A stretch of 64,000 bases of DNA from Cryobacterium sp. SO1 (GTDB lineage Bacteria > Actinomycetota > Actinomycetes > Actinomycetales > Microbacteriaceae): assembly GCF_004210215.2 (NCBI RefSeq), contig NZ_CP067394.1, positions 124,001 to 188,000 of the forward strand, in the 5' to 3' direction. Under the pieces are notes generated by a model. It was not told the DNA's origin, made no database searches, and saw only the letters and a program-made list of their open reading frames with translations. Shown here one piece after another: positions 20,913-51,880 of this stretch. Position 1 is the stretch's first letter; every line of letters starts with the position of its first letter. Position numbers and translations under genes: made by a program.

Positions 20913-21030
20913 GTTTCGGCGGCTATAGCAAGAGGGAAACGCCCGGTCACATTCCGAACCCGGAAGCTAAGACTCTTTGCGCCGATGGTACTGCAGGGGG
21001 GACCCTGTGGGAGAGTAGGACACCGCCGGA
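20913..21030 (+). rRNA. rrf: 5S ribosomal RNA
   Basis: About 118 bases with the universal segments GAGGGAAACGCCCGGTCACA, TTCCGAACCCGGAAGCTAAG and GGGAGAGTAGGACACCGCCG. It sits about 130 bases after the 23S gene, in the standard operon order. Confidence 0.95.
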
Positions 21031-21044
21031 CTTAACTTAGAAAA

Positions 21045-21106: not shown

Positions 21107-21227
21107 CTGGTCGAGCTCGTCGAGCGCTGGTCGAGCTCGTCCAGACCCCGCGACACGACCCACGGACGCACCGGTGTCGGCGTGGCCCCGCGAGCCGCGG
21201 CACCAGGTCTCGACACGCTCGACCACC
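21107..21227. repeat. Dispersed GGTCGAG-type repeats
   Basis: CTGGTCGAGCTCGTCGAG and CTGGTCGAGCTCGTCCAGACC occur in tandem and GGTCTCGACACGCTCGACCACC in inverted orientation. The same family occurs at 28900-29075 and 51765-51880. With the rrn terminator it occupies most of the gap before the adenine deaminase gene (21078-21395). Confidence 0.6.
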
Positions 21228-26701: not shown

Positions 26702-26889
26702 GGCGCCCGAACCTGGGCGAGTGACGGCGGGACCGTCGGGAAGGCTGATAATGGAAGGTAGCCGTTTCGGCCTCCGCCCGAATTCACAGGCTGCGACGGC
26801 ATCAGCTGACGCACGGTGGACACCCAGACTCCTGGGAGAAAATCGAAGGACTGGATTTGTCGCTACTCACAACTCGACAGGGGACCCCG

Positions 26890-27912
26890 TTGGACGGAAA
26901 CGCAACAACGATGCACCGCAATGTCGCGTTGTTGTCGGTCGCCACGACCATCGCACCCCGAATCACGACCTCTGACGAGATCGACGTTCGCCTGCAGCCG
27001 GCGCTGAAGCGCCTGCGCCTGCCCAAGGGGCTGCTGCAGCGTGTCGCCGGAGTGCACGAACGGCGCAACTGGGCCGAAGGCCAGGCTTTCGACGACGCAG
27101 CCGTGTCCGCGGGCAAGCGCGCCCTCGCCCAGGCCGGGATCGACCCCAGCGAGGTGGGGCTGATGATCAACACCTCGGTCACCCGCAAGCACCTCGAGCC
27201 GTCCGTCGCCGTACGCATCCACCACGGTCTCGGCCTGCCGTCGTCGGCCACGAACTTCGACATCGCCAACGCCTGTCTGGGCTTCGTGAACGGGATGACC
27301 TTGGCGGCCCAGCTGATCGACTCCGGCCAGATCAAATATGCGGTGATCATCGACGGTGAGGACGCCGACGAGATCCAGACCAACACCATCGAGCGCCTCA
27401 GCCGTCCCGACATCGGACGCAAGGATTTCATGAGCGAGTTCGCCAGCCTCACCCTGGGCTCCGGTGCCGCCGCAGCCGTGCTCGGCCGGGCCGACGCGCA
27501 CCCGGAGGGGCACCGGATCCTCGGCGGCGTGACGCGGGCGGCCACCCAGTTCAACGACCTCTGCGTCGGCAGTGTCGACGGCATGTTCACCGACGCCAAG
27601 GCGCTGCTCAAGGGCGGCATGGAACTTGTCGTGTCGGCCTGGACCGAAGCCAAGCGCGACTGGAGCTGGTCGAACATGGACCGCTACATCCTGCACCAAG
27701 TGTCGGATGTGCACACCAACGCCATCGTCAAGGCCACCGGCCTCGACCGGACTCGGGTGCCGCTGACCTACCCCGGTTACGGCAATGTCGGGCCCGCATC
27801 GATCCCGATCACGCTCTCCGAGGAAGCCGACCGGCTTGTGCCCGGCGACCGGGTCCTGCTGATGGGCGTCGGCTCCGGCCTCAACACCGCCATGATGGAG
27901 ATCCAGTGGTGA
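26890..27912 (+). CDS. oleA: OleA, acyl-CoA head-to-head condensing enzyme (thiolase fold)
   Basis: 340 residues from the TTG at 26890 (LDGNATTMHRNVALLSV), which aligns with the usual OleA N-terminus and has AGGGGA five bases upstream; a TTG 11 codons earlier is the alternative. Catalytic residues are all present: Cys129 in NACLGF, His269 in YILHQVSD, Asn299 in GYGNVGPAS, and Glu103 in the position of the OleA glutamate that enters the partner's site. Two long-chain acyl-CoAs are condensed to a beta-keto acid, the first step of long-chain olefin synthesis. First gene of the ole operon; its stop overlaps oleBC (GTGA). TGATAAT near 26744 could be its -10 box. Confidence 0.9.
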   Translation: MDGNATTMHRNVALLSVATTIAPRITTSDEIDVRLQPALKRLRLPKGLLQRVAGVHERRNWAEGQAFDDAAVSAGKRALAQAGIDPSEVGLMINTSVTRKHLEPSVAVRIHHGLGLPSSATNFDIANACLGFVNGMTLAAQLIDSGQIKYAVIIDGEDADEIQTNTIERLSRPDIGRKDFMSEFASLTLGSGAAAAVLGRADAHPEGHRILGGVTRAATQFNDLCVGSVDGMFTDAKALLKGGMELVVSAWTEAKRDWSWSNMDRYILHQVSDVHTNAIVKATGLDRTRVPLTYPGYGNVGPASIPITLSEEADRLVPGDRVLLMGVGSGLNTAMMEIQW

Positions 27913-30734
27913 GTTACCGGCTGCCGCGTCCCGCGACGGCCCTGGCTCCGGCGAGCGTTCCGCCGAGCGGCCTGCCGGGTCTCGACCCGGACTGGTCCCG
28001 GATCGTCGACGTGGTGGAGAGCGCTCTGGACGACGGCGCGGCGGCGGGCGTCAGCCACGCCTGGCACCTGCTCGACAACGGCGACGAGTTGGCCGCGCTC
28101 GGCGCCGAACCGGTGGGCACGATTCTCTGCGTGCACGGCAATCCCACCTGGTCCTACCTCTGGAGGGACCTCGTGGCCCAGGCCAGTGCCGCCGCGGCGG
28201 CCGACCGCCCCGCCTGGCGTGTCATCGCGGTCGACCAGCTCGACATGGGTTTCTCTGAGCGCACCGGCGTCGCCCGCCCTCTGGCCCGCCGGGTGCAGGA
28301 TCTCGACGACCTCACCCGCGCGCTCGGCCTGTCCGGCCCCGTGGTCACCTTCGGCCATGACTGGGGCGGCGTCGTCTCCCTGGGCTGGGCCGTCGACCAC
28401 CCCGAGCTTCTGGCCGGTGTGCTGCTGCTCAACACGGCCATCCACCAAAGCGAGAACGAACCCATCCCGGCACCGTTGCGCCTCGCGCTGGCCCGCGGTG
28501 TGCTCACCGCAGGCACCGTGACCACCACGGCGTTCCTGGAGACCACCCTCGCGCTCGGCCACCCGGCGCTGACGGCCGAGATCAAGAACGCCTACCGGGC
28601 GCCGTATCGCACGCCCGCCCGCCGCGGCGGTATCGGCGGCTTCGTCGCCGACATCCCCGTGGATGCGGGCCACGGAAGCCACGCGGAGCTCGACCACATC
28701 GCCGAATCCCTTCCCGCGCTCACTGTTCCCGCCCTGATGCTCTGGGGCCCGCGAGATCCGATCTTCAGCGACCGCTACCTCGACGACCTCAGCGAGCGGA
28801 TGCCGCACGCCGCCGTGCACCGCTTCGAGGGTGCCGGACATCTCATCGCCGAGGACGTGGACTACGCCGGGGCCGCGCTCGGCTGGCTCTCTGCAAGCCT
28901 GGTCGAGCCGGCCCCGTTGGTCGAGCCGGCCCCGCCGGTCGAGCCTGTCGAGACCCCGCCGGTCGAGCCTGTCGAGACCCCGCCGGTCGAGCCTGTCCCG
29001 TTGGTCGAGCCTGTCGAGACCCCGCCGGTCGAGCCGGCCCCGTTGGTCGAGCCTGTCGAGACCCCGCCGGTCGAGAGCACGAGCCAACCCCTCTGGCACT
29101 ACCTCGACGAACTGCGGGACAACGACGAGACCGCCCTCATCGATATGGCTCCCCGCGCCGGCGCCGGCCCCCGTGTCGTCAGCTGGCGGCTGCTCTCCCG
29201 GCGGGTCCGCGAGATCGCGGCCGGCCTGCACCAGATCGGCGTCCGCCACGGCGACCGGGTCTCCCTGCTCGTGCCGCCCAGCGCGGACCTCACCGCCGTG
29301 CTCTACGCCTGCGTCCGCCTCGGCGCGATCGTCGTGGTGGCCGACGCCGGCCTCGGACTCGCCGGCCTCACTCGTGCGGTCCGCGGTGCCCGCCCTGACC
29401 ATGTCATCGGCGCGCTGCCCGGCCTGATGGCCGCCCGCGCACTCGGCTGGCCCGGTCAGAAGATCTCCGTCAACCGGCTTCCCGCCGCCAGCCGCCGGGC
29501 CCTCGGAGTCTCCTATGCCCTCGCCGACCTGATCTCGCTGGGCCGCGACGAGGAGCTTCCCCTGCCGCCCGAGCCCGGCGACGTCGCCGCAGTACTCTTC
29601 ACCTCCGGCTCCACCGGACCCGCCAAGGGTGTCGTCTACACGCACGGCCAGCTGTCTGCCGTCAGCCTGGCGCTGCACGCGCAGTACGGTGTCGGCCGCG
29701 GCACCGGCCTGGTCGCCGGCTTCGCCCCGTTCGCGCTGCTCGGCCCGGCCCTCGGCGCCCGGTCGGTGACCCCGGACATGGACGTCACCGCGCCCAAGAC
29801 GCTGACCGCCGCAGCGGTCGCTGCCGCCGTGGCCGCGATCGATGCCACCGTCGTGTTCCTCTCCCCGGCCGCACTGGCCAACGTCGTCGCCACTCAGAGC
29901 GAACTATCCCCGGCCGACCGCGCCGCCCTGGCCAGGGTGACCAGCTTCCTCTCGGCCGGCGCCCCCGTCTCTGAACCGCTGCTCGCCTCGGCCGCCGCCC
30001 TGATGCCCGGCGCCAGCGCTCACACGCCTTACGGAATGACCGAGGGCCTGCTGATGACCGATATCACTCTGGACGGCATCCGCGAAGCCGCCAGAGACGA
30101 CGTGGCCCGCGGCCCCGGCGGCGTGTGCGTGGGCCGCCCCACCGCGACCACCCGGGTGCGGATCAGCGCCCTCGACGAGACCGGTGCCGCCGTCGGTGAG
30201 CTCTCCGAGGAGCCGCAGGTCACCGGCGAGATCGTGGTCTCCGCTCCGCACGTCAAGGACCACTACGACAGGCTCTGGCTCACCGACCAGGCCGCCACCC
30301 GCGCGGTCACCGCGGGTGAGCGCTGGCACCGCACCGGCGACGTCGGTCACGTCGATGCCGCCGGCCGGCTCTGGGTGGAGGGGCGCCTGCCGCACGTGAT
30401 CACCACGGCAGACGGCGTGGTCACCCCGGTCGGCGCTGAGCTGGCCGTGTCCGACCTGGCCGGCGTCGACCGTGCCGCGGCGGTGGGTGTCGGGCCCGCC
30501 GGCAGCCAGCAGGTCGTCATCGTCGTCGAGACGGTTCCGCCGGCCAGCCGCGTCGGCCTGGCCGACCCCGCCCTGGCCGCTCAGGTGCGGGCCGTCGCCG
30601 GCCATCCGGTCGCGGCCGTGCTCGTGGTGCCGCACCTGCCCACCGACATCCGGCACAACTCCAAGATCGACCGCACCCGCCTGGCCCGCTGGGCCAACGG
30701 CATCCTCACCGGGTCGAGGCTCACCCAGCCATGA
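27909..30734 (+). CDS. oleBC: OleBC fusion: beta-lactone decarboxylase plus beta-lactone synthetase
   Basis: 941 residues. Residues about 30-325 are an alpha/beta hydrolase of haloalkane-dehalogenase type: CVHGNPTWSYLWRDL, nucleophile Asp151 in GHDWGGVV, and His in FEGAGHLIAED. This is OleB, which decarboxylates cis-beta-lactones to alkenes. Residues about 331-389 are a linker of repeated PVEPVETP units. From about 395 on is OleC, an ANL adenylating enzyme (LFTSGSTGPAKGVVYTHG, then YGMTEG, WHRTGDVGH and the lysine in NSKIDRTRLARW), which makes the beta-lactone from the beta-hydroxy acid. The fusion is known from other actinobacteria such as Micrococcus luteus. GTG start overlaps oleA; the stop overlaps oleD (ATGA). 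Confidence 0.92.
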   Translation: MSYRLPRPATALAPASVPPSGLPGLDPDWSRIVDVVESALDDGAAAGVSHAWHLLDNGDELAALGAEPVGTILCVHGNPTWSYLWRDLVAQASAAAAADRPAWRVIAVDQLDMGFSERTGVARPLARRVQDLDDLTRALGLSGPVVTFGHDWGGVVSLGWAVDHPELLAGVLLLNTAIHQSENEPIPAPLRLALARGVLTAGTVTTTAFLETTLALGHPALTAEIKNAYRAPYRTPARRGGIGGFVADIPVDAGHGSHAELDHIAESLPALTVPALMLWGPRDPIFSDRYLDDLSERMPHAAVHRFEGAGHLIAEDVDYAGAALGWLSASLVEPAPLVEPAPPVEPVETPPVEPVETPPVEPVPLVEPVETPPVEPAPLVEPVETPPVESTSQPLWHYLDELRDNDETALIDMAPRAGAGPRVVSWRLLSRRVREIAAGLHQIGVRHGDRVSLLVPPSADLTAVLYACVRLGAIVVVADAGLGLAGLTRAVRGARPDHVIGALPGLMAARALGWPGQKISVNRLPAASRRALGVSYALADLISLGRDEELPLPPEPGDVAAVLFTSGSTGPAKGVVYTHGQLSAVSLALHAQYGVGRGTGLVAGFAPFALLGPALGARSVTPDMDVTAPKTLTAAAVAAAVAAIDATVVFLSPAALANVVATQSELSPADRAALARVTSFLSAGAPVSEPLLASAAALMPGASAHTPYGMTEGLLMTDITLDGIREAARDDVARGPGGVCVGRPTATTRVRISALDETGAAVGELSEEPQVTGEIVVSAPHVKDHYDRLWLTDQAATRAVTAGERWHRTGDVGHVDAAGRLWVEGRLPHVITTADGVVTPVGAELAVSDLAGVDRAAAVGVGPAGSQQVVIVVETVPPASRVGLADPALAAQVRAVAGHPVAAVLVVPHLPTDIRHNSKIDRTRLARWANGILTGSRLTQP
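28900..29075 (+). repeat. In-frame tandem repeat encoding the OleB-OleC linker
   Basis: The unit CCGCCGGTCGAGCCTGTCGAGACC (24 bases written as CCGCCGGTCGAG plus CCTGTCGAGACC) and a shorter variant CCGTTGGTCGAGCCGGCC alternate about seven times. The DNA is the same family as the intergenic repeats at 21107 and 51765, but the unit length is a multiple of three and the frame stays open. Confidence 0.8.
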
Positions 30735-31702
30735 GGGTGCTCGTCACCGGCGCCAGCGGCTTCCTCGGCCGTGCCGTGGCGGCCGCGATCGTCGCCGCCG
30801 GCCATGAGGTGCGCTGCTTCCAACGCCGGCCCAGCGGTGTGACCGGCGCCACGGATGCCCTGGGTTCGATCACCGACCCGGCCGACGTGGCCGCCGCGGT
30901 TGCCGGGGTCGACGCCATCGTGCACCTCGCCGCCAAGGTCTCCTTGGCCGGGCCGTCCGCCGAGTTCGACACCGTGAACGTGGGCGGCACCCACAGCCTG
31001 ATTGCCGCGGCGCGCGCGGCGGGGGTGCAGCGGCTGGTCTTCGTGTCGTCTCCGTCGGTGGCGCACTCCGGCGCATCCATCACGGGCGACGATGCGCTGC
31101 CCGCCGATCCCACACAGGCCCGCGGCGACTATGCCCGCACCAAGGCGGCCGCCGAACTTCTGGCGCTCGCCGCCGACTCCCCGGAGCTTCGGGTCGTCGC
31201 GGTGCGGCCGCACCTGGTCTGGGGCCCCGGCGACACCCAGCTCATCGCTCGCATCGTCGAGCGGGCCAGGTCCGGTCGGCTGCCGTTGCTCGGCCACGGC
31301 GCCGCCCTCATCGACTCCACCTACATCGACAACGCCGCCAGTGCCATCGCGGCCGCACTCGAACGGGTGGATGCCGTGCACGGCAACGTCTACGTCATCA
31401 CCAACGGCGAACCTCGGCCGGTCGCCGATCTGCTCGGCGGGATCTGCCGAGCGGCCGGTGTTCCCGCTCCCGCCTGGAGCGTACCCGCCGCGGTCGCCCG
31501 CGCCGCCGGCTCCGTCATCGAGGCGGCCTGGCGGATGTTCCCGGGTGAGGACGAACCGCCGATGACCCGGTTCCTGGCCGAGCAACTCTCCACCGCGCAC
31601 TGGTTCGACCAGCGCCGCACCCGCGCCGACCTGCACTGGACCCCGGCGGTCTCCCTCGACGAGGGCTTTGCCCGCCTCGCGGAGCACTACCGCAGCGCGT
31701 AA
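30731..31702 (+). CDS. oleD: OleD, NAD(P)H-dependent 2-alkyl-3-ketoalkanoate reductase
   Basis: 323 residues, extended short-chain dehydrogenase. Cofactor motif VLVTGASGFLGRAVAAAI, then FVSSPSVAHSG and the catalytic YARTKAAAE (Tyr and Lys). It reduces the OleA product to the beta-hydroxy acid used by OleC. The basic residues after the first beta-alpha unit (CFQRRPSG) suggest NADPH. ATGA overlap with oleBC completes a three-gene, four-activity operon. Confidence 0.9.
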   Translation: MRVLVTGASGFLGRAVAAAIVAAGHEVRCFQRRPSGVTGATDALGSITDPADVAAAVAGVDAIVHLAAKVSLAGPSAEFDTVNVGGTHSLIAAARAAGVQRLVFVSSPSVAHSGASITGDDALPADPTQARGDYARTKAAAELLALAADSPELRVVAVRPHLVWGPGDTQLIARIVERARSGRLPLLGHGAALIDSTYIDNAASAIAAALERVDAVHGNVYVITNGEPRPVADLLGGICRAAGVPAPAWSVPAAVARAAGSVIEAAWRMFPGEDEPPMTRFLAEQLSTAHWFDQRRTRADLHWTPAVSLDEGFARLAEHYRSA

Positions 31703-31784
31703 GGCTTCATACCTCTGAGCTGGGCGGGCATCGTGCCACCGGCTTCTTCGCTGGCCCCGTCGTCGCGCCACCGGCACCTGCCCC

Positions 31785-32026
31785 GCGCATCGCCCCCGAG
31801 CCCCGGGTGGCCCTGGCGCCTGACCCGCGCAACGGCGTGTAGCCCGCGTAGCCCGGCGGGCGGGGTGGGCGCCGCTAGGCGGGTGGCGCGCCACCCGCGC
31901 AGCGGCGCCTGACCCGCGCATCGCCCCCGAGCCCCGGGTGGCCCTGGCGCCTGACCCGCGCAACGGCGCCTGACCCGCGCATCGCCGCCGAGCCCCGGGT
32001 GGCCCTGGCGCTTGACCCGCGCAACT
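31785..32026. repeat. Three direct repeats of about 50 bases
   Basis: Units begin at 31785, 31916 and 31977. Each reads GCGCATCGCC, GAGCCCCGGGTGGCCCTGGC, then TGACCCGCGCAAC, with one or two differences. The gap 31703-32159 holds these repeats and one palindrome; I see no gene there. Confidence 0.75.
31868..31909. repeat. 42-base near-perfect palindrome, copy 2
   Basis: 21-base arms differing at two adjacent positions, no loop. It matches the element at 6953-6994 except for one base (GCCGCTAGG here, GCCGTTAGG there). Confidence 0.8.
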
Positions 32027-32147
32027 CGCGCGAGCGGGCAGGTCGTGAGTCGCGCCAATGTGCCCAGTCGGGTGTGCTGAGGCCGGACTACGCCGCGACT
32101 CGCGGTCGATGTGCGGAGCGCGCTTGCCGGCATCCGACCGACGACGG

Positions 32148-36968: not shown

Positions 36969-36982
36969 ATGCATCCTGGGGC

Positions 36983-37027
36983 GGGGGCGGCGGGGGCGGC
37001 GGGGGCGGCGGGGGCGGCGGGGGCGGC
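36983..37027 (+). repeat. Five exact tandem copies of GGGGGCGGC
   Basis: A 9-base unit repeated five times without error, just before the lldD end. Runs of five G with short spacers could fold into G-quadruplex on the plus strand. Exact copies suggest a length-variable locus. Confidence 0.85.
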
Positions 37028-37065
37028 GCCCGGGCCAGCGAGCCGTGCTGGGTGTCGCGGCGGGG

Positions 37066-51764: not shown

Positions 51765-51880
51765 GGTGGTTGAGCTTGTCGAAACCCGGTGGTCGAGCAT
51801 GTCGAGACCCGGTGGTCGAGCCGGTCGAGCCGGCCCAGCCGGTCGAGCCGGGAGCCGGGCCGGTTGAGACCAGGTGGTCC
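51765..51880. repeat. Dispersed GGTTGAGC-TGTCGAAACC repeats, intergenic copy
   Basis: GGTGGTTGAGCTTGTCGAAA, GGTGGTCGAGCATGTCGAGA and GGTGGTCGAGCCGGTCGAGC follow each other between the binding-protein and permease genes. Same family as 21107 and the OleBC linker. Confidence 0.75.

Follow-up and report, generated by a model that had tools for sequence, protein, structure and literature searches.

How does the hinge between two fused enzymes of hydrocarbon formation come to be made of repeats? In a window of 64,000 nt from Cryobacterium sp. SO1 (contig NZ_CP067394.1, positions 124,001 to 188,000), we examined oleBC (27906..30734, + strand), which encodes a 942-aa fusion of an OleB-like alpha/beta hydrolase (PF00561) and an OleC-like AMP-binding beta-lactone synthetase (PF00501). 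The two parts are joined by an interdomain linker of 60 codons (residues 333–392; 28902..29081, +) consisting of units and half-units of a 19-bp repeat that we call R1. A sequence-only reading of the window had proposed that this linker consists of about seven tandem copies of a mobile or repetitive extragenic palindromic (REP)-like repeat, captured and expanded in frame. The answer that we regard as probable is that the linker represents a captured, dispersed R1 expanded in frame, and that hinges of this kind are recurrently filled from a lineage's own repeats. Throughout, G-numbers denote genomes of the genus set (the 4.07-Mb source genome being G000), L-numbers loci, and P-numbers database proteins.

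The OleBC linker is repeat DNA

We identified nine GGTCGAG half-units in the linker (at 28901, 28919, 28937, 28961, 28985, 29003, 29027, 29045, and 29069). Four belong to complete, exact 19-bp R1 cores translated as VEPVET (28937..28955, 28961..28979, 29003..29021, and 29045..29063, all +), and the remaining five are truncated half-units; the linker is therefore repeat-built as proposed, while the count of about seven copies was loose. Across the whole window, the R1 19-mer at up to three mismatches gave 11 matches compared with 0.12 expected (100 shuffles, largest 1). Copies of the same family had been placed at 21107-21227 and 51765-51880, and we found them in both places. The first region holds two degenerate extragenic copies at 21109 (3 mismatches) and 21129 (2 mismatches; together 21109..21147, +), just 3′ of a 5S rRNA gene located by Rfam at 20915-21031, and an exact extragenic copy on the minus strand (21206..21224). 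The second holds an array of three copies with 23-bp spacing (51768..51832, +), at 51768 (2 mismatches), 51791 (exact), and 51814 (3 mismatches), which is probably intergenic; it overlaps a gene start as called by our codon-usage script, and, judged by eye, a leader is more likely than coding sequence given the start codon just below. An Rfam scan of window positions 20000-53000 matched rRNA alone.

A selected Pro-Val-Glu-rich disordered hinge might, in a GC-rich genome, mimic the repeat by chance. When the linker was recoded synonymously, the four cores observed compared with a mean of 0.13 and a maximum of 3, and 0 of 20,000 recodings reached four; the similarity of the copies thus exceeds base composition. 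Likewise, the 14 linkers in the genus with an exact core contained 28 cores, compared with 0.77 on average after recoding and never more than 5 in 2,000 trials (the codon usage of the window's oleBC was applied to all 14). In 18 genes (clade A, 12; clade B, 5; and G025), all 21 prolines preceding GTC-GAG-ACC or GTC-GAG-GCC were encoded by CCT, as were all 11 in the shorter VE-P-V context. Elsewhere in these genes, CCT accounted for 36 of 1125 prolines within the OleB and OleC parts and, among the other linker prolines, for 25 of 166; the counts are non-independent owing to tandem copies and kinship. It speaks for convergence of codons that PVE-rich linkers with no complete core occur (e.g., in G018, G021, and G003), and that GTC, GAG, and CCG are frequent codons in oleBC, CCG encoding 612 of the 1125 prolines. 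The recoding test and the uniform CCT contradict it, and on these grounds we rejected it; furthermore, linkers also contain R1 in reverse orientation, translated as LDKLDQR, and the repeats R2, R3, and that of Agreia described below yield other peptides in the same hinge. We consider such convergence hardly credible.

R1 is abundant and mainly extragenic

The genome search that had been suggested as a check returned 173 copies of R1 in G000 at up to two mismatches, compared with 0 for a reversed control pattern. To place the copies relative to genes, which were called by a purpose-written codon-usage script, we used two samples. The first comprised 400 kb of G005, sampled at even intervals and without oleBC, in which 297 genes of 150 aa or longer were called, covering 322 kb; all 16 copies (up to one mismatch) lay outside them. 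An even spread of the 571 copies in G005 predicts approximately 50 in such a sample, so the copies are clumped. In stretches of G000 picked around repeats, 123 of 134 copies (up to two mismatches) lay outside genes of at least 150 aa. The 11 within genes comprised four in oleBC, two in the gene for an 809-aa protein discussed below, and one in each of five others, among which one gene probably had its start called too far upstream; apart from the linkers of these two proteins, R1 is rare inside genes. Apparent matches were also seen in other G000 genes (L094, L100, L101, and L104).

The 19-mer is conserved at many non-coding sites, as seen in the consensus of 114 non-coding windows. Of the six frames, a mean of 4.97 were open in non-coding R1 windows, compared with 3.79 in the remaining non-coding windows and 4.66 in the subset of the latter with at least 66% GC. 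Opposite-strand neighbors no more than 80 bp apart in G000 were arranged +- in 21 cases vs. -+ in 4, and such pairs could therefore fold; the arrangement resembles the pairing in a bacterial interspersed mosaic element (BIME).

Three repeat families fill the same hinge across Cryobacterium

We searched for OleBC in 57 genomes of the genus and obtained linkers from 54, leaving out weak matches in G024 and G054 and a fragment in G039. All 54 were multiples of three in length (48 to 342 nt) and highly divergent in sequence. The comparison of relatives had been set beforehand as a test that could overturn the proposal, and it revealed no shared, conserved, non-repetitive linker. R1 (up to one mismatch, 45 nt of flank included) was present in 20 of the 54 linkers, with 36 copies in total; if linkers are treated as ordinary non-coding DNA, 1.4 copies in 1.3 linkers are expected, assuming that 12% of each genome is non-coding and that R1 copies are evenly spread. 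The number of R1 matches per genome ranged from 1 to 571 among the 57 genomes, and linker R1 was found in 14 of 20 genomes with at least 40 copies elsewhere vs. 6 of 34 others (Fisher p = 1.8e-4).

Two further families were identified in the hinge. R2, a strong palindrome (fold z −9.8) present in 15 of 57 genomes, occurs in six linkers (G002, G010, G016, G030, G031, and G051), corresponding to 6 of 8 genomes with at least 10 R2 copies elsewhere vs. 0 of 46 others. R3 occurs in the linkers of G026 and G033, whose genomes contain 65 and 97 copies, respectively, or 2 of 3 genomes with at least 10 copies elsewhere vs. 0 of 51 others; the G033 linker combines R3 with one reverse R1. At least one of the three families was present in 27 of the 54 linkers. 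On a quick OleBC tree that excluded the linker, parsimony put the minimum number of changes at 13 (R1), 5 (R2), and 1 (R3), gain and loss not being distinguished.

One OleBC in the set, that of G041 (L044), gave two overlapping matches (query 2-762 and 759-942) whose open frames differ, and a database protein of 789 aa (P0107) apparently corresponds to it; this split is a frameshift or an assembly error in the OleC part.

Unit number changes while the frame is kept

The suggestion that unit lengths keep the frame open found support. The distance between same-strand R1 copies was divisible by three in all 16 linker cases vs. 17 of 56 non-coding ones, and Tandem Repeats Finder (TRF) reported periods of 9, 18, 24, 42, and 66 in the SO1 linker, all multiples of three, and of 23 (and 9) in the 51.8-kb array. 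Spacing of this kind is the demand of an open gene, and shows selection on the frame, not on the peptide. Forward copies in OleBC (up to two mismatches) used one frame in 36 of 37 cases, many of them related, and reversed copies used one frame in 6 of 7.

R1 unit number differs between species, as the comparison of G000 with G018, its sister in the OleBC tree, demonstrates: their linkers differ by one 132-nt block bounded by the 7-bp GGTCGAG, its placement being ambiguous by those 7 bp, and in the leftmost placement the block contains all four complete R1 cores. A difference of this kind is what would arise if short direct repeats had recombined or slipped. Unit numbers vary further among database proteins, in 101 of 120 of which the linker was recognized (e.g., five units in P0005). 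The G025 linker (L054) is a near-perfect 66-bp triplicate with one R1 per unit, and because its three units are identical, a recent amplification is suggested.

Other hinges and other genera

R1 was also detected in the interdomain linker of a second protein, an 809-aa kinase-like protein (L124:2571-4997; G000 C1:421570-423999) that gave only sub-threshold matches to histidine-kinase-type ATPases. Nine of 30 loci carried R1 (up to two mismatches) in this linker, in the VEPVET frame in eight (G000, G018, G036, G056, G001, G032, G005, and G041) and in another frame in G048; the loci of G024 and G054 had broken frames. The last 50–60 residues of the protein are repeated at 95–98% identity at G000 C1:2690281, 3734976, 1348877, and 343416, and most relatives match only to approximately residue 760. 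A repeated end, perhaps that of an insertion sequence, may have been joined to the 3′ end of the gene or have truncated it.

Beyond the genus, we examined named OleBC loci, the best 80 of 558, of which 62 were not titled Cryobacterium. Among these best 80, R1 (up to two mismatches) was present in 0 of the 62 non-Cryobacterium linkers, and the 49 non-Cryobacterium genomes searched contained 0 to 12 R1 matches each, one of them (L147) apparently being G052 of the genus set. A different repeat, TTCGACAAGCTCAGGGA, occupied the hinge in Agreia, with two exact copies in linker L172 and a single-mismatch copy in L170; the corresponding genomes contained 125 and 34 exact copies, respectively, with 0 for reversed controls. 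This Agreia repeat was absent, at up to one mismatch, from the other 78 named linkers among the best 80 of 558 loci. By eye, it has the stretch CGACAAGCTC in common with reversed R1 (CTT form), and because of this shared stretch the two families may be distantly related.

Origin of the linker

What, then, filled this hinge? We propose that one or more copies of the mainly extragenic R1 entered an unconstrained oleBC hinge and would then have been multiplied and trimmed in three-base steps, with GGTCGAG direct repeats probably recombining or slipping against each other. Hinges of this type would act as recurrent sinks, each lineage filling them with its own abundant family (R1, R2, R3, or the Agreia repeat). 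The identity of the DNA, the link between repeat family and genome, the keeping of the frame, and the change of unit number between species are established. The direction from genome to gene and the route of insertion are what we infer, as is a role of the peptide as a neutral or mildly useful disordered spacer. Overall, the capture and in-frame expansion put forward by the sequence-only reading find support in the codon evidence, the genome copy number, the spacing, and the differing families elsewhere.

Several observations weigh against this proposal. The association between R1 copy number and linker R1 was not significant in a phylogenetically independent-pairs test (10 pairs, of which on average 1.9–2.9 went in the expected direction and 0.0–1.1 in the opposite one, the others showing no difference). 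Six R1-rich genomes have no linker R1 at up to one mismatch (G010, G003, G031, G018, G021, and G046), although G010 and G031 carry R2 there and G003 and G021 carry 2-mismatch copies. Conversely, linker R1 occurs in six R1-poor genomes (G033, G035, G047, G020, G037, and G027), and in G027 there is no further copy at up to one mismatch. None of R1, R2, or R3 was present in 27 of the 54 linkers. The word "mobile" in the earlier proposal found no support: the Y1 transposase/REP-associated tyrosine transposase (RAYT) family (PF01797) was detected in 0 of 57 genomes, with 5 of 14 control genomes positive, and we saw no insertion junction or target duplication at the linkers compared. The search for a RAYT origin of R1 was accordingly negative in these 57 genomes. 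Sequence alone does not, moreover, prove the direction from genome to gene. Lastly, the predicted structure of OleBC was poor (mean predicted local distance difference test score [pLDDT] 61.9, predicted template modeling score [pTM] 0.42, 40 sequences). Linker residues 333–392 were modeled with pLDDT below 50 and no secondary structure, but stretches inside the enzyme domains (177–252, 707–763, and 765–828) also scored below 50, and the model is therefore merely compatible with a disordered linker, without being proof of one.

A single ancient R1 capture in a common ancestor, its peptide kept by purifying selection and later lost or eroded in some lineages, would account for the one frame shared by 36 of 37 forward copies and for the recurrence of eroded reverse copies (GDLGKLDQR type) inside one clade. 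It does not explain why R2, R3, and the Agreia repeat sit in this hinge, and the changes counted by parsimony also run counter to it, though that count is blind to gain vs. loss; we consider a single capture unlikely, while taking it seriously. Four families in one hinge require more than one capture; for R1 by itself, either repeated capture or an old capture with later loss may apply. The repeat could alternatively be retained in the linker for a role as nucleic acid, such as a protein-binding site, an mRNA structure, or pausing between domains, a notion in keeping with the conservation of the same 19-mer at many non-coding places and with the fact that frame-keeping alone is no proof of selection on the peptide. 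Given that unrelated repeats fill the same hinge, that half of the linkers (27 of 54) do without R1, R2, or R3, and that one R1 core by itself does not fold into a significant hairpin, a role of this sort seems quite improbable. More doubtful still is that the gene was the source and that a coding repeat in oleBC gave rise to the copies dispersed outside genes; we found nothing in its favor. All 57 genomes had one or more R1-like matches vs. R1 in 20 of 54 linkers, and the R1-rich G010 and G031 carry R2 in their linkers.

Capture of dispersed repeats, if it occurred as we propose, may be more general. In Cryobacterium and certain other Microbacteriaceae, the hinges of fused enzymes could be general capture sites for a lineage's own dispersed repeats, which their mostly open frames would partly pre-adapt, with the VEPVET frame bias arising from selection for an acidic, proline-rich spacer; we offer this extension tentatively, rating its chances a little short of even. 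If it is true, both the length and the sequence of such linkers would be continually rebuilt from extragenic DNA. The locus provides a traceable case in which mainly non-coding repeats have turned into protein while the source DNA is still present in the same genomes. Several unrelated repeats at one hinge offer a way to ask how fusion enzymes acquire and extend their interdomain linkers, and whether a linker peptide is selected or merely tolerated.

The oleBC gene and its neighbors

Profile searches placed PF00561 at residues 72–315 and PF00501 at residues 406–784 of OleBC, both above cut-off, and NCBIfam models of olefin beta-lactone synthetase matched with E-values of 3e-79 and 2e-69, below their cut-offs. 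The upstream gene (26857..27912, +) matched NCBIfam NF006720 (3-oxoacyl-ACP synthase III) above cut-off, and from its place in the gene order we call it oleA-like. The downstream gene (30731..31702, +) is oleD-like (NCBIfam NF042422 OleD, E 1.9e-95, below cut-off). An alpha/beta hydrolase and an AMP-binding enzyme thus lie in one chain beside oleA- and oleD-like genes, as defines an OleBC fusion, and its enzyme activity is predicted. Directly 3′ of the oleD-like gene lies a longer tandem repeat (31764-32037; TRF period approximately 131 bp, inner period 61), and a perfect 9-bp tandem repeat, GGCGGGGGC, is present in 5.4 copies at 36980-37028 (TRF).

Comparison with known repeat systems

We compared R1 with REPs as defined in PMC12306157, using the GTAG/CGTC superfamilies and RAYT as described in PMC3733652. 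R1 is short and highly repeated (19 bp, 173 copies) and, in the G005 and G000 samples described above, usually extragenic. A single R1 core does not qualify as a stem-loop-forming palindrome: its DNA folding was no better than that of shuffled sequences (z −0.53 and −0.79), and a hairpin was not supported for it, whereas R2 does have the palindrome. "REP-like" is therefore apt for copy number and location, and inapt for the folding of the single core. By eye, the consensus of the 114 non-coding windows with R1 showed neither a GTAG nor a CGTC tag. RepRanger (PMC12306157), whose table covers Actinomycetota too, describes REPs as seldom overlapping coding regions.

In-frame repeats inside bacterial genes were known already, as was the oleBC fusion, which is described in the ole cluster of Micrococcales (PMC7064751); it is the same fusion as ours, and the word "linker" does not appear in the main text of that paper. 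In the openly licensed literature we found no report of interdomain linkers built from repeats and no match to the R1 core as a text string. According to PMC3733652, GTAG/CGTC REPs occur inside open reading frames (ORFs), where clusters encode 43–82 residues, and two Xanthomonas species carry different REPs at roughly the same position in recB; we saw no mention of linkers in its account of intragenic REPs. Like these REPs, R1 is dispersed, mostly intergenic, and in frame inside ORFs. Unlike them, it has no tag in its consensus and no Y1 transposase was found with it, and in Cryobacterium several families occupy one interdomain hinge genus-wide and are tandemly expanded.

The Rickettsia palindromic elements (RPEs) described in PMC2229807 are 105–146 bp long and form long stem-loops, and in the sole case tested there, gmk, the product was active. 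R1 resembles RPEs in that the same repeat is found in intergenic DNA and also, in frame, within protein genes; it differs in being 19 bp long and weakly folding, in becoming a tandem array, and in being rare in genes beyond the two linkers. The palindromic amphipathic repeat coding elements (PARCELs) of PMC2996958 encode a 25-residue amphipathic motif in ORFs without assigned functions. As in PARCELs, tandem protein repeats of variable number come from dyad-symmetric DNA; unlike in PARCELs, R1 units lie mainly outside genes, and the peptide that they encode is a spacer rich in Pro and Glu. What is new relative to these systems is that several repeat families, each present in the host genomes, occupy one interdomain hinge with in-frame tandem expansion.

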